Below are positions 25,352 to 28,950 of a stretch of DNA of 64,000 nucleotides, piece after piece. The notes beneath the pieces are model-generated. The model did no database searches. It was not told the DNA's origin and worked only from the letters and a program-made list of their open reading frames with translations. A program made the translations under genes and the position numbers. Origin of the DNA: Vulcanisaeta thermophila. GTDB lineage: Archaea > Thermoproteota > Thermoprotei > Thermoproteales > Thermocladiaceae. Each line of letters begins with the position of its first letter. Position 1 is the first letter of the stretch. The stretch spans positions 289,177 through 353,176 of the forward strand of contig NZ_BCLI01000001.1 in assembly GCF_001748385.1 (NCBI RefSeq), given 5' to 3'.

Positions 25352-25466
25352 GCCCCGGTAGCTCAGCCTGGGAGAGCGACCGGCTGAAGATCCACGGGCA
25401 ACAGAGAAAAAGCCCGTGGAGACAGGAACCGGTAGGTCCCGGGTTCAAGTCCCGGCCGGGGCACCA
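25352..25466 (+). tRNA. tRNA-Phe (GAA) with 38-nt intron
   Basis: Acceptor GCCCCGG pairs with CCGGGGC, the D-arm contains TAGCTCAGCCTGG, and the T-arm is CCGGG-TTCAAGT-CCCGG. Anticodon GAA is at 25386-25388. The canonical 37/38 intron runs from about 25390 to 25427; its CCACGGGC/GCCCGTGG helix supports a bulge-helix-bulge splice site. After splicing the anticodon stem is ACCGG/CCGGT. CCA is encoded at 25464-25466. The TnpB-bearing element begins within 20 nt of its 3' end. Confidence 0.93.
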
Positions 25467-25475
25467 AAACAATCC

Positions 25476-26579
25476 TCAATCATAAAACCCCACGTGGGGT
25501 TTGTGGGCGTGGGTTTTCGACGTAAAGATTATTAGGTAGCTTGTTGTCGTTAACCCAGCCCGGAGTTCTGGGATGGCCCTGGGCGTTTCAGATACTAAAT
25601 ATGCAAAGCCCCGGTACCACCGGCTGAAGCCGGTTTCCGTTGCGCAGCTGGTGCCACGCAACGGAGCCCGTGTCATGTCTTTTCGGTCTTCTACATCTGG
25701 GGCATCCGCAATCCAACTCTTCATCATACTTCTCCCCAGCCCGGGGTGGGTGGGCCCCGGGCTGGGTGCCCAGGGCCTTTCCCCACCCCGAGCTGGGTTG
25801 GTGATGAATCTTTTGAGTGCCATGTACGCGATGTACGCTAAACGCATTATATTCAGTGATGCGTTGAAGTCTCTATCGATGATGCCGTGTCTTGGGCATT
25901 TCACTTTCCTGTTTTTTAATTCCACAACTGGTTGGAACCTTGCTTCCTTTATAGCACAGAGGCCGCATATGCTGCTCGTGCCTTTTGGATCAATCGCAAT
26001 TATGTAGTAGTGGTTGCCGTGGCCCCTAAGCATTGATGCCTCGTATTCGTAATTCACATCCATCAATGAGGGTATCCTACGGGTCATTAATGGCCTCTTG
26101 CTGACCACTAGTAGGTTGAATACTCGGCTGTACCTGAGTATGTTTAGTTTTCTCTTGAGTGCTAAGCCCCTTAGGTCCTCAATGCCAATTACGCCCTGTA
26201 TGCCGTGAATGTTGCGTAGTCTCCTGAACAGCTTAATCAGCTTAGTGGCTGCCCATAGCGTCACCCACACCCTTACTTGGTTGTGTGGGTTGTCCTCTTC
26301 CTCACTTGGTATTGGAATCCTCATGTAGATGATGTCACCATCCACAATCATCAACGCATCATAAACATCAACCCCACGCCACTCCCTATAAATCACATTT
26401 ACGAAGTATTGCTCAAACTCACTAACCACGGCATTTACATCCACGTCTTTGGGTAGTAGGCATGATATGTCTATTGATGCCTTGTTTTGGTCTATGCCGC
26501 AGACTAGTACTGGGCTTGAAGCACTGGGGGCGCCTTGCCCTGGGTTCCCTGCGTTCCCCTTATTGCGACTTTGCGTCAT
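25476..26579 (-). CDS. TnpB-like RuvC nuclease (IS605 OrfB family), short N-terminus
   Basis: 367 residues. RuvC-I CGIDQNK (Asp30), RuvC-II GIEDLRG (Glu134) and RuvC-III DRDFNASLNIMRLAY (Asp235/Asp237) are all present. A zinc finger CGLC...CPRH (205, 208, 228, 231) sits between the last two, with His in place of the usual fourth Cys. TnpB proteins normally have about 150-200 residues of wedge/REC domains before RuvC-I; here only about 28, Ser/Gly/Pro-rich. No missing N-terminus is found in other frames upstream. The C-terminal tail after about 262 is Pro/Gly-rich (WAPSPGPTHPGLGRS) and overlaps strong hairpins. If active, it is an RNA-guided DNA nuclease; if not, a decayed copy. Confidence 0.8.
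   Translation of the reverse strand: MTQSRNKGNAGNPGQGAPSASSPVLVCGIDQNKASIDISCLLPKDVDVNAVVSEFEQYFVNVIYREWRGVDVYDALMIVDGDIIYMRIPIPSEEEDNPHNQVRVWVTLWAATKLIKLFRRLRNIHGIQGVIGIEDLRGLALKRKLNILRYSRVFNLLVVSKRPLMTRRIPSLMDVNYEYEASMLRGHGNHYYIIAIDPKGTSSICGLCAIKEARFQPVVELKNRKVKCPRHGIIDRDFNASLNIMRLAYIAYMALKRFITNPARGGERPWAPSPGPTHPGLGRSMMKSWIADAPDVEDRKDMTRAPLRGTSCATETGFSRWYRGFAYLVSETPRAIPELRAGLTTTSYLIIFTSKTHAHKPHVGFYD
25485..25502. repeat. 18-bp perfect palindrome, element end next to tRNA-Phe
   Basis: AAACCCCACGTGGGGTTT reads the same on both strands and lies 19 nt from the tRNA-Phe 3' end. It contains the last codons of the TnpB frame. Its core CCCCACGTGGGG recurs at 27050-27061, and a weaker version (CCCACGTGGAG) at about 28820-28830. 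Confidence 0.85.
25554..25766 (-). ncRNA. Hairpin-rich 3' part of tnpB, candidate omegaRNA scaffold
   Basis: Within the C-terminal tail of the tnpB frame four hairpins are packed: CCCAGCCCGGGG/CCCCGGGCTGGG (25735-25746 and 25755-25766, 12 bp), TCCGTTGCG/CGCAACGGA (25636-25644 and 25657-25665), ACCGGC/GCCGGT (25619-25624 and 25629-25634) and CCCAG/CTGGG (25554-25558 and 25568-25572). In IS605-type systems the guide RNA is made from the 3' end of tnpB up to the right end, so position and structure fit. The guide would then start just beyond the end palindrome, inside the tRNA-Phe flank. RNA evidence is needed to prove transcription. Confidence 0.5.
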
Positions 26580-26580
26580 G

Positions 26581-26709
26581 ACCTCACCTGTGCTGGTTCC
26601 CCTGGCCCTCTAGCGTGGCTTGCCCGAATCTTCTCGGGCGAGCCACACCGGGCCCTATTGAGGGAAGGATTGGTGGGCCCGGAGGGCCAGGGACCAGCAC
26701 AGGTGAGGT
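26581..26709. repeat. Large nested inverted repeat upstream of tnpB
   Basis: ACCTCACCTGTGCTGGT (26581-26597) is the exact reverse complement of 26693-26709. Inside, CCTGGCCCTC (26601-26610) pairs with GAGGGCCAGG (26682-26691). The 71-nt loop folds again: GTGGCT/AGCCAC with CCCGA/TCGGG (26615-26646), and CCGGGCCC/GGGCCCGG (26648-26655 and 26675-26682). The arms begin 1 nt upstream of the tnpB ATG, so the 5' leader of any tnpB transcript would be fully folded. No coding sense on either strand. Confidence 0.85.
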
Positions 26710-27061
26710 GTGGTTGGGTATTGTGCGGTTTTGTTCCTGGGTTCCTTCTGCCTTCATTGTCTCTGAGCATTGTGGTTGTTGGGTTCCCTGCCCCGTCCCC
26801 CTCTCCCTTGGTCCGTGGGCTCGCGTCCTCCCCTACCTCATCCGTGAGTCCACGGACCAGCCCGTGGGGTTGACCAGCTCCTCCCCTACCTCATCACTGG
26901 CACCACCACGGGCCCAGGCCCCCCTCACGAGGGACCCCATTCTTTCCACGGGCAATCCCCGTGAGGGGTTAAGCATAGGAGAGTGGGAGGGAGGAGGGGT
27001 TTGAGGCAGGGAACCCAGGGCACAGCCAAGCACAACCCACGCTACCCACCCCCACGTGGGG
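26710..27061. repeat. GC-rich non-coding stretch with direct and inverted repeats
   Basis: No gene is supported here; long open frames exist only because the DNA is GC-rich. TCCTCCCCTACCTCATC occurs at 26826-26842 and again at 26879-26895 (53-bp period). Inverted pairs: GGTCCGTGG 26810-26818 with CCACGGACC 26850-26858, and CCCCTCACG 26921-26929 with CGTGAGGGG 26960-26968. The run of structured blocks ends at the palindrome CCCCACGTGGGG (27050-27061). It may encode a structured RNA or be the remains of repeated insertion ends. Confidence 0.6.
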
Positions 27062-27071
27062 CATTAAATCA

Positions 27072-27118
27072 ACCCCGAGTAAGACGCCCCGGCAAACCCA
27101 GGGAGCCGACCTCGGGGT
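27072..27118. other. Stem-loop just outside the element
   Basis: ACCCCGAG (27072-27079) pairs with CTCGGGGT (27111-27118), with an inner CGGC/GCCG pair (27090-27093 and 27105-27108). It follows the CCCCACGTGGGG end by about 10 nt. It could be a terminator, a structured RNA, or flanking target structure. Confidence 0.5.
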
Positions 27119-27277
27119 CTCATCATGTGATTACTCACTTCCCTCTATCTACCTAAACTCAGGATGGTTTAAAATGAACTCACGCAGTCTCACCATTACC
27201 ATACACATCATGAAAAATAATACTAATATATCGGTCGAGCAATTGCACGTACGGAGTCGAGGGTATGTTCGTGACAT

Positions 27278-27306
27278 CGCGGAAACTTCTCCGTGAAGTT
27301 TCCGCG
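27278..27306. other. Perfect 11-bp hairpin
   Basis: CGCGGAAACTT (27278-27288) and AAGTTTCCGCG (27296-27306) pair perfectly around a 7-nt loop (CTCCGTG). It stands alone in an AT-rich spacer between the TnpB element and the CRISPR leader. Bidirectional terminator or protein-binding site are possible. Between 27119 and 27480 I see no gene. Confidence 0.6.
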
Positions 27307-27783
27307 TTATTTAGAAATTATGTGTAAAATCAACGTGAATTAACCCGTAGGTTCAAAATAATGTTCATGATAACAATTCAATTCCAAATAGACTATACGC
27401 ACGGAGCCGGCCCCTTTTTAAATCCTTTTAAACCCTTATAAGGCATAAATGATCCCCTAACCACACCACTAAGTATTGGCACCGTGCAATATGGAGGTTT
27501 ACCTCCCACGAAAACGTGCAACTCAATGCGTGGGGCGGTCGCGCTCAATTCTCATTTAGGTTGTATTGCTTCGTGCATTTTCTACGCCGGACTTTTGTCT
27601 GCACTTCGTGGGAACGGTCATGTTTTTGGAGAATTGAAGTACCGTGGGAACATTAATTCAATTTCTAAAGATTACCATGAGAACAGGCACGAATCAATGA
27701 AAAAGGAAGTTGAAATGCGCACCAACGAGGGAAAGGCAGGAAAGAGGAAAAGCTTATAAAACCCTAGAAAAACCCACAAACCG
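27307..27783 (+). promoter_or_regulatory. CRISPR leader region with promoter
   Basis: The stretch before the first repeat has no supported gene; a 91-codon frame at 27484-27759 lacks a promoter and ends at the array, so I treat it as chance. AGCTTATAAAACC at about 27751-27763 is a good TATA-like box and would start transcription close to the first repeat (27784). The upstream side is identified as the leader because repeats end in ATTGAAA, the crRNA 5' handle of crenarchaeal arrays, so the array is read rightward. Confidence 0.65.
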
Positions 27784-28435
27784 GAAGATTTCACAAGAAG
27801 ATTGAAAAGAGTACTCTATCATTCAACGCCCATTGAGGCACCTTGAGCATTGAAGATTTCACAAGAAGATTGAAAACTTTATTGCCCGTGGTGATTAGGA
27901 CATCATTCCTCTCAAGGGAAGATTTCACAAGAAGATTGAAAACCCGTACGTGAACCTCTACACCGTAGGCACTGGCTCGTTCAGTGTCACTGGAAGATTT
28001 CACAAGAAGATTGAAAACCAGGATGTACTTGATACGGTACGACCAGTCCCTGTAAGAAGATTTCATATGAAGATTGAAAATCTTCTAAGCCCATCACAAC
28101 TAGTGTTGGGGCTGTTCCTTCCTTAAGAAGATTTCATATGAAGATTGAAAAACTGTGATGCCCATTATGTTAAGGGTTTGCGGTATGCATGGTGTTAGAA
28201 GATTTCATATGAAGATTGAAAGTAGCCGAAGTACTCAAACCACGTGTGGACGTAATCGTAGAATATGAAGATTTCATATGAAGATTGAAAACGTTCTCAT
28301 AGTGTTTATTATTATCTCTGAGGAACACGCTATGTGGAAGATTTCATATGAAGATTGAAAAGCAACGTTATTTTCTTTGTTCACGGCATTTCCAGGTTCT
28401 AAATCAATCAAGAAGATTTCATATGAAGATTGAAA
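27784..28435 (+). CRISPR. CRISPR array, 10 repeats of 24 nt, 9 spacers
   Basis: Repeats start at 27784, 27852, 27918, 27993, 28056, 28127, 28198, 28267, 28337 and 28412. Spacers are 44, 42, 51, 39, 47, 47, 45, 46 and 51 nt. The repeat is GAAGATTTCAyAwGAAGATTGAAA; repeats 1-4 have CACAAG in the middle, and repeats 5-10 have CATATG. An A usually follows. The repeat itself contains GAAGATT twice. The 3' ATTGAAA is the type I/III handle of Thermoproteales and Sulfolobales. No cas gene is in the window, so processing must rely on Cas6 made elsewhere. The array is short and its far end is not visibly degenerate. Confidence 0.97.
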
Positions 28436-28679
28436 GTTGGTGCATGACGTTGGTTATTGTGAGGACTATTTCATAAATGGGGGTTTCGTGAAGGGGTTGG
28501 GGTGTGTTGGTGTGGTTTTATTTGTTTGTTACTTAGCAATTTGTTGCTACCAACCTCGCCATTTGATCCAGGTGGTGGGGGTGGTTTAGGCTGATTGTTC
28601 CTGGGTAGGTTCCTCATCCTATTCCTCAATACGGAATACCCCTCATTATGTCGTGATGATTTACATTAGATCTATTACG
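28436..28679. other. Non-coding stretch after the CRISPR array
   Basis: G/T-rich sequence follows the last repeat (TGGGGGTTTCGTGAAGGGG and similar). No open frame with a promoter, no RNA gene and no repeat beyond a GCAATTTGTTGC dyad (about 28536-28547) can be supported. Confidence 0.4.
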
Positions 28680-28832
28680 TGGTGGGAGCCGCGTAACGAA
28701 AACCGAACCCGTCGCTTTCCAAGCAGTCTGAAAAGCCCGGAGCCACCTAAAGCCCCAGGCTGGAATGGGCAGCAAACCACTTACTAAACTTTAAGCCCAG
28801 GAATCCCATGCCCACAAATCCCACGTGGAGTT
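28680..28832 (+). mobile_element. Orphan right end related to the TnpB element (no nuclease gene)
   Basis: Read on the plus strand this matches, block by block, the 3' end of the tnpB region on the minus strand: GCGTAACGAAAACCG here against GCGCAACGGAAACCGG; AGTCTGAAAAGCCC against TATCTGAAACGCCC; GGCTGG against GGCTGG; and ATGCCCACAAATCCCACG then TGGAGTTT against ACGCCCACAAACCCCACG then TGGGGTTT. The distance between blocks is conserved to within about 35 nt. So it is a diverged, solitary right-end (guide-RNA scaffold) copy. Like the full copy it lies next to a tRNA gene: tRNA-Trp ends about 25 nt away. Confidence 0.65.
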
Positions 28833-28856
28833 TCATGAAGAATGAGAGGAGGTTTT

Positions 28857-28950
28857 TGGTGGGCCCGGTGGGATTTGAACCCACGACCTGCGGGTCTGGA
28901 GCTTCGGCGATTTACCTCCGCCGCTCTGGGCCTTGCTGAGCTACGGGCCC
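28857..28950 (-). tRNA. tRNA-Trp (CCA) with non-canonical 15-nt intron at 30/31
   Basis: Acceptor GGGCCCG/CGGGCCC, D-arm TAGCTCAG, T-arm GTGGG-TTCAAAT-CCCAC, encoded CCA at 28857-28859. The anticodon loop is CTCCAGA, anticodon CCA. The 3' half of the stem, CCCGC, finds its 5' partner GCGG-G only if 15 nt (about 28903-28917 on the plus strand) are removed between positions 30 and 31. Introns inside the anticodon stem are typical of Thermoproteales. A CTTAAAACC box lies about 25-30 nt upstream. Confidence 0.9.

Follow-up and report, generated by a model that had tools for sequence, protein, structure and literature searches.

A TnpB-like element and its solitary ends behind tRNA genes in Vulcanisaeta thermophila

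Introduction

What brings a TnpB-like nuclease gene, a clustered regularly interspaced short palindromic repeats (CRISPR) array and an orphan element end together between two tRNA genes? The question is raised by positions 25352-28950 of the window, i.e., the stretch of 64,000 nucleotides (nt) of the archaeon Vulcanisaeta thermophila that we analysed (assembly GCF_001748385.1, contig NZ_BCLI01000001.1, positions 289,177 to 353,176). From left to right, the locus holds tRNA-Phe, a TnpB-like RuvC gene on the minus strand, a hairpin-dense block, the CRISPR array, a lone right end of the same element and tRNA-Trp. The first-pass annotation, made from the sequence alone, had described these parts in this order, and every one of them was found; a search for cas genes in the interval between tRNA-Phe and tRNA-Trp, and not in the rest of the window, returned none, as it had stated. 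It had also put the arrangement down to chance clustering in an integration hotspot. The hotspot stands but the chance does not, since the element lineage is specifically found behind tRNA genes. Indeed, the layout goes beyond chance: the right-end pattern CCCCACGTGGGGTTTGTGGG matches 18 times genome-wide with at most three mismatches, the reversed control pattern never, and 11 other genomes of the genus hold no match. These comparisons indicate that the locus contains an intact copy of a multicopy mobile element, together with a solitary end of it, and that this element prefers sites just downstream of tRNA genes. The best explanation of the locus, which we hold with moderate confidence, is a multicopy TnpB-type element that would reach tRNA 3' flanks by RNA-guided homing, with a satellite type III array in the same hotspot.

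A multicopy element downstream of tRNA genes

The element and its tRNA borders are laid out in the window as follows.

25352-25463, to 25466 with the encoded CCA, plus strand: tRNA-Phe (Rfam RF00005, 54.9 bits)
25467-25487, minus strand: predicted guide region, antisense to the tRNA-Phe trailer (from its position beside the right end and analogy with TnpB)
25488-25799, minus strand: right end with a predicted omegaRNA-like structured RNA ending at the palindrome CCCCACGTGGGG (covariation, 8 aligned copies)
25476-26579, minus strand: TnpB-like nuclease open reading frame (ORF) of 367 amino acids (aa) (PF07282, E=3e-8, above the curated cut-off)
26580-27140 (about), minus strand: left-end block, predicted long structured leader RNA or 5' untranslated region, ending in the hairpin CCCCGAG...CTCGGGG (15 genome matches, consensus fold)
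27166-27178, minus strand: TATA-like box just outside the left end (sequence pattern)
28727-28838, minus strand, drawn on the tRNA strand: solitary right end of the same family (right-end hidden Markov model (HMM), E=8e-20)
28860-28950 by Rfam RF00005, 28857-28950 in the feature list, minus strand: tRNA-Trp with a 15-nt intron and anticodon CCA (manual reading)

Half of the right ends, 9 of 18, are found downstream of a tRNA gene, a different one each time, on its strand and in one orientation. These tRNAs are Phe, Trp, Met, Gln, Leu, Leu, Cys, Asn and Arg (the Asn label comes from a manual reading of the anticodon), and one more right end lies 103 nt behind the 5S rRNA. The HMM recovers two more decayed cases, so that an end is found downstream of 11 of the 46 tRNAs and upstream of none of the 46, with the orientation constant; the distance from the tRNA body to the start of the end is 22-32 nt in seven cases, 53 nt in one, and 237-264 nt in three that have an extra spacer module. 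Because the HMM was trained mostly on tRNA-linked copies, the pattern count is the unbiased figure. When insertions are treated as independent, nine tRNA-linked ends have a probability of P=3e-18 under uniform placement and of P=5e-10 if 12% of the genome is permissive. No tRNA was found near the TnpB loci of ten other genomes of the same family, nor at five loci of another family; the tRNA preference thus belongs to this lineage in this species.

In the window, the right end of the intact copy begins 21 nt beyond the CCA of tRNA-Phe and the solitary one 26 nt beyond that of tRNA-Trp. They are inverted copies of each other, identical at 86% over 37 nt and at 72% over 105 nt (28727-28838 versus 25487-25592). 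The identity of the second tRNA as tRNA-Trp, given in the first-pass annotation, was borne out, since excising the 15-nt intron AGGTAAATCGCCGAA yields the stem-loop GCGGG-CUCCAGA-CCCGC with anticodon CCA; the tRNA-Tyr called by ARAGORN was rejected, as it would place a G at position 33. tRNA-Phe carries a 38-nt intron (25389-25426), and its orthologues in three genus mates (G017, G018 and G019) are intronless. A candidate second TnpB of the window, at 18.8 kb, was discarded: the 24-nt match sits inside an unrelated ORF.

Across the genome, the nuclease has nine matches and the left-end block 15. Since repeats break draft assemblies, it is as expected that contigs C3, C4, C6, C7 and C9 terminate inside element copies, and C10 in a 245-bp repeat also present in the window (27205-27450). 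The copies span 0.9-1.7 kb and contain no recombinase gene. The compact nuclease is carried by the copies in the window and at C7:79.5k, C1:645k, C6:95k and, in part, C5:69k; canonical TnpBs are found at C4:170k (frameshifted, L043) and C5:222.5k (439 aa, L113). The copy downstream of tRNA-Met (L041) is ORF-less, others are solitary right ends, and several copies are decayed. All those reaching that far present a right-end palindrome and a left-end hairpin, i.e., the subterminal hairpins that characterise IS200/IS605 elements. At C1:181543 (L110:2044-3289), a right end of the family directly adjoins an ORF of 403 aa that has an NPARRAP leader and two LAGLIDADG-like motifs. The match of this ORF to Pfam LAGLIDADG_3 (E=0.042) stays below the cut-off; a swap of one homing nuclease for another is possible there. 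As an NPARRAP-like leader peptide is common to several of these ORFs, the comparison suggests that related ends have acquired different nucleases.

Possible routes to the tRNA flanks

At three tRNAs (Leu, Cys and Leu), a 250-bp spacer module lies between the trailer and the right end (L044:8216-8415, L045:6901-7150 and L048:358-493). At C5:222.5-224.5k (L113/L178), the canonical 439-aa TnpB stands beside a unit made of CCA, trailer, spacer module and right end, with no tRNA in front; from its CCA onward, this unit shows homology to the tRNA-Cys locus. On C6, the intact tRNA-Ser is at C6:94858, and a fragment of it near a single CRISPR repeat resembles a duplicated attachment site.

Could the ends have been carried to these places by a separate site-specific recombinase, in integrative elements whose attachment sites are tRNA 3' ends, the nuclease being a passenger? 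This is the main rival, and we consider it unlikely. It would account for L046:13180-13480 (C6:90.2-90.5k), which has the 20-nt tRNA-Ser 3'-end fragment (C6:90448), a trailer and the 250-bp spacer module; for the tRNA-less unit with CCA, trailer, spacer and right end at C5:224k; and for the extra module at three tRNA-linked ends. However, seven right ends begin 22-32 nt past the tRNA body without any module, the copies hold no recombinase gene, and their length is small for integrative elements.

The distribution could also be a relic. An older IS200/IS605-type transposon may have been inserted by a TnpA of its own that has since disappeared, and its copies in tRNA flanks, being at harmless sites, would have survived. 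Canonical TnpBs with related ends do remain in the genome, several copies are decayed, and right ends also occur in other intergenic places. On the contrary, the nine tRNA-linked ends stay as improbable as stated above even with 12% of the genome permissive, survival alone leaves the fixed orientation and the 22-32 nt spacing unexplained, and no Y1 transposase remains; we judge this scenario improbable.

A compact nuclease under constraint

The constrained core of the nuclease covers residues 24-262 (about 25794-26510), with the catalytic residues D30, E134 and D237. In our alignment of nine proteins from seven genomes (three from this genome; L183, L185 and L186 from one genus of a second family; L117-L119 from two further genera of the family of V. 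thermophila), neither these three nor the cysteines C205 and C228 of the zinc ribbon vary, and the last zinc ligand pair is CxxH in most copies. The D-E-D triad and the TNB zinc ribbon of TnpB are thus both present. The N-terminal WED and REC domains are absent: the RuvC-I aspartate is at residue 8-42 from the starts used, and the open frame before the motif does not exceed 75 residues in any of the nine. Against the PDB, the nine-protein profile matched Cas12m4 (1.8e-6), Cas12f (7e-6) and ISDra2 TnpB (3.8e-4), at the RuvC-III/TNB end. Searches of genome contigs, viral contigs, plasmids and phages did not find the compact protein, and a broader profile had matches in viral contigs, but only to the C-terminal portion of the nuclease region. 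The structures predicted by AlphaFold for the nuclease and for the LAGLIDADG-like ORF (predicted local distance difference test, pLDDT, of 43 and 39) were too poor for use, and Foldseek returned no significant match.

Between the window and C7 copies, the core shows dN 0.18, dS 1.46 and a dN/dS of 0.12, i.e., purifying selection, which argues that the protein is used. In the tail (residues 263-300) of the same pair, dS is 0.22 and dN/dS 0.86; a low dS with a ratio near 1 points to conservation as nucleic acid. Alternatively, the compact protein could be what decay has left of a canonical TnpB, deprived of its N-terminal half and inactive. The genome does encode canonical TnpBs whose N-terminal leader peptide is similar (L043 and L113), and the structure model is poor. 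This view is nevertheless very improbable and largely refuted by the four intact copies, by the dN/dS between two of them, and by the same RuvC-first layout in six other genomes from three genera, at 19-27% identity and with all the catalytic residues kept.

Predicted structured RNAs at both ends

The eight aligned right-end copies share a common fold in which 95% of cells are paired and seven pairs changed on both sides; shuffled alignments gave 3.1 such pairs (none of 500 reached seven) and slid versions 0-2. The ORFs of L183 and L185 finish at similar palindromes (CCCCATGTGGGCG and CCACCATGTGGGG). The covarying structure and the substitution pattern of the tail both point to an omegaRNA laid over the 3' end of the gene, as in TnpB systems, and they support the earlier suggestion of a RuvC protein working with a scaffold RNA of its own.

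At the other end, the common fold of the left-end block has 77 pairs, four of them changed on both sides, and the hairpin just before the ORF differs on both stem sides between the window and C6 copies. The conserved CCCCGAG is preceded, at a distance of 38-45 nt, by a TATA-like box in each of the six left ends; hence, the left-end RNA, the ORF and the right end are probably read as a single transcript. By its predicted parts, the element would open with a promoter and a long structured leader RNA, followed by the compact nuclease, TnpB-like but RuvC-only, and by an omegaRNA-like RNA that terminates at the right end. No clear target-adjacent motif (TAM) was seen in the compared left-end flanks, where the boundary is inexact.

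A predicted guide directed at tRNA trailers

In TnpB systems, the scaffold stops, on its 3' side, at the right end, and the guide is the flank beyond, of which ISDra2 TnpB uses only the proximal 12 nt (PMC10278001). Since the right end of our element points into the tRNA, an RNA read past it would be antisense to the tRNA trailer, then to the tRNA 3' end. The Met and Trp copies have predicted guides (TTCATGAAGAATGARAGG) that fit five tRNA trailers over 12 nt with at most one mismatch, and six to eight tRNA loci over 16 nt with at most three; upstream and antisense controls gave none. The motif TTCATTCTTCATGAA (at most two mismatches) is nearly confined to tRNA 3' flanks and element ends in the 317 kb of DNA fetched, which is partly redundant.

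The sequence establishes the anatomy, the constraint, the RNA structure, the tRNA link and the complementarity of guides and trailers, whereas transcription, guide use, cleavage and homing are what we infer. By analogy with TnpB, the flank beyond the right end would serve as guide; the nuclease and its RNA would cut guide-matching tRNA 3' flanks that lack the element; and repair from an occupied copy would re-install or spread it. Where tRNAs have trailer sequence in common, a single guide could reach several of their loci. In its fullest form, the proposal is that of a RuvC-only TnpB lineage in which large flanking RNAs have replaced the WED/REC lobe, and which, with guides taken from tRNA trailers and no transposase, homes to the 3' side of many tRNA genes; to this version we give rather little credence.

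Several points weigh against guided homing. The same ends are also found at sites without a tRNA, including other intergenic places, and the guide of the window copy matches its own locus only. Similarity between trailers could be either the cause or the consequence of insertion. No clean empty site was found: the tRNA-Phe neighbourhood differs in the genus mates and its noncoding DNA is unalignable. The Y1 transposase TnpA (PF01797) has no match in the whole genome, although control genomes were positive. Finally, WED and REC are the TAM readers of known TnpBs, so that a nuclease missing them may act unlike TnpB.

The CRISPR array

The remaining part of the locus, between the two element ends, is read on the plus strand.

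27205-27450, plus strand: separate 245-bp repeat (sequence matches; upstream of CRISPR leaders here and at C10)
27507-27783, plus strand: CRISPR leader (93% identical to the leader of a C6 array)
27784-28435, plus strand: CRISPR array with 10 repeats of 24 nt and 9 spacers of 39-51 nt (repeat detection)

The repeat of this array is also present on contigs C6 and C10 of the same genome. C6 carries Cas10 (Csm1_B, palm2), a RAMP protein, Cas6, Csx1 and Cas_APE2256, and the array-distal flank of the window (28412-28527) is 87% identical to another C6 array. With its repeats, its unique spacers and a leader in common with a cas-bearing locus, the array has the features of a type III array. A type V assignment would call for an effector consistently beside the array, and most nuclease copies have none. 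The array is therefore best read as an ordinary satellite array of the host type III system, probably served in trans by the C6 cas genes and located in the same hotspot. The idea that it is part of the element was dropped, because its leader and distal flank match C6 arrays.

Might array transcripts nonetheless guide the RuvC protein, the two forming one functional system? The first-pass annotation had raised such a link as a speculation. Nuclease and array do adjoin, and other CRISPR fragments of the genome are also near element ends: leader or repeat fragments lie within ~0.5 kb of element-derived DNA at C10, at tRNA-Arg (L052) and at C6:90.7k. On the other hand, the type III locus that the repeat and the leader match, on another contig, has Cas6 and Cas10, and no array stands beside most nuclease copies. 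Moreover, the leader-repeat stretch is found in genus mates G014, G016, G017, G019 and G020 at 68-81% identity, and across 11 genus mates the compact nuclease has weak matches at most and the right end is absent from all. Because the leader family is present in at least five genus mates lacking the nuclease, comparison of related genomes, which the first-pass annotation had named as able to refute the link, refutes an obligate one, and a single system, already disfavoured, has next to no probability left. The satellite array of the type III system is thus the reading that we retain.

Several details of this region deserve mention. The repeat variant changes after the fourth repeat (middle CACAA to CATAT), and both variants exist in other arrays of the genome. 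Three spacer cores had no exact match in IMG/VR, and spacers had none within the fetched loci. The 245-bp repeat (further copies at L171:1934-2178, L043:5890-6126 and L180:13063-13238) has a strong hairpin and is also found upstream of an unrelated ORF at C1:659433. At L052:4468-4940 (C1:557.4-557.9k), tRNA-Arg, a solitary right end, a fragment of this repeat and a leader-repeat remnant make up a decayed version of the window arrangement.

Comparison with known systems

TnpB is the ancestor of Cas12. The element resembles TnpB systems, the OMEGA nucleases of IS200/IS605 and IS607, in its RuvC D-E-D triad, its TNB zinc ribbon, a flank in guide position and a predicted structured RNA that overlaps the gene's 3' end and stops at the right end. 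It differs from them by the missing WED/REC lobe: RuvC-I is at residue 30, whereas in ISDra2 TnpB, WED and REC, which read the TAM, occupy residues 1-176 and RuvC starts from 185 (PMC10097598). A long predicted left-end RNA, the concentration at tRNA 3' flanks and a genome without TnpA also set it apart. TnpB is described as the smallest set of domains that all Cas12 enzymes share (PMC10097598), so that a constrained family beginning at RuvC-I would be smaller still. With IS200/IS605 elements, including the TnpB-only IS1341 type, it shares small size, hairpin ends, a TnpB-type gene toward the right end, solitary ends and ORF-less derivatives; unlike them, it has no detected Y1 transposase and prefers tRNA flanks, and a non-canonical nuclease and a LAGLIDADG-like ORF are also associated with its ends. 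As judged from sequence, the layout is thus TnpB-like, yet the element lacks both the WED/REC domains of canonical TnpB and the TnpA of IS200/IS605. In the open-access literature searched, we found no paper on tRNA-tied TnpB elements or on TnpBs without WED/REC, an absence that is no proof.

The best PDB profile matches fall in the RuvC-III/TNB region of Cas12f and Cas12m. These are full bilobed effectors working with CRISPR arrays, whereas the window protein is multicopy, in elements that mostly have no array. The window array itself shares its repeat and its 93% identical leader with the type III locus of C6, and differs from it in having no cas genes of its own. Like tRNA-integrating islands and viruses, the element takes tRNA 3' regions as landing site; unlike them, it has no integrase gene in its copies, and its ends lie 22-32 nt past the tRNA body rather than within it. 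The link to tRNA flanks would be a natural case where one guide could address several genomic sites, and makes transposase-free RNA-guided homing directly testable.

The nearest parallel to a REC-less nuclease with a bulky RNA, here predicted, is IscB/IsrB (PMC10097598), which stands on the Cas9 side, whereas the window protein matches the TnpB/Cas12 side. The compact family thereby makes it testable whether RNA can replace the target-reading lobe on the Cas12 side too, as in IscB.

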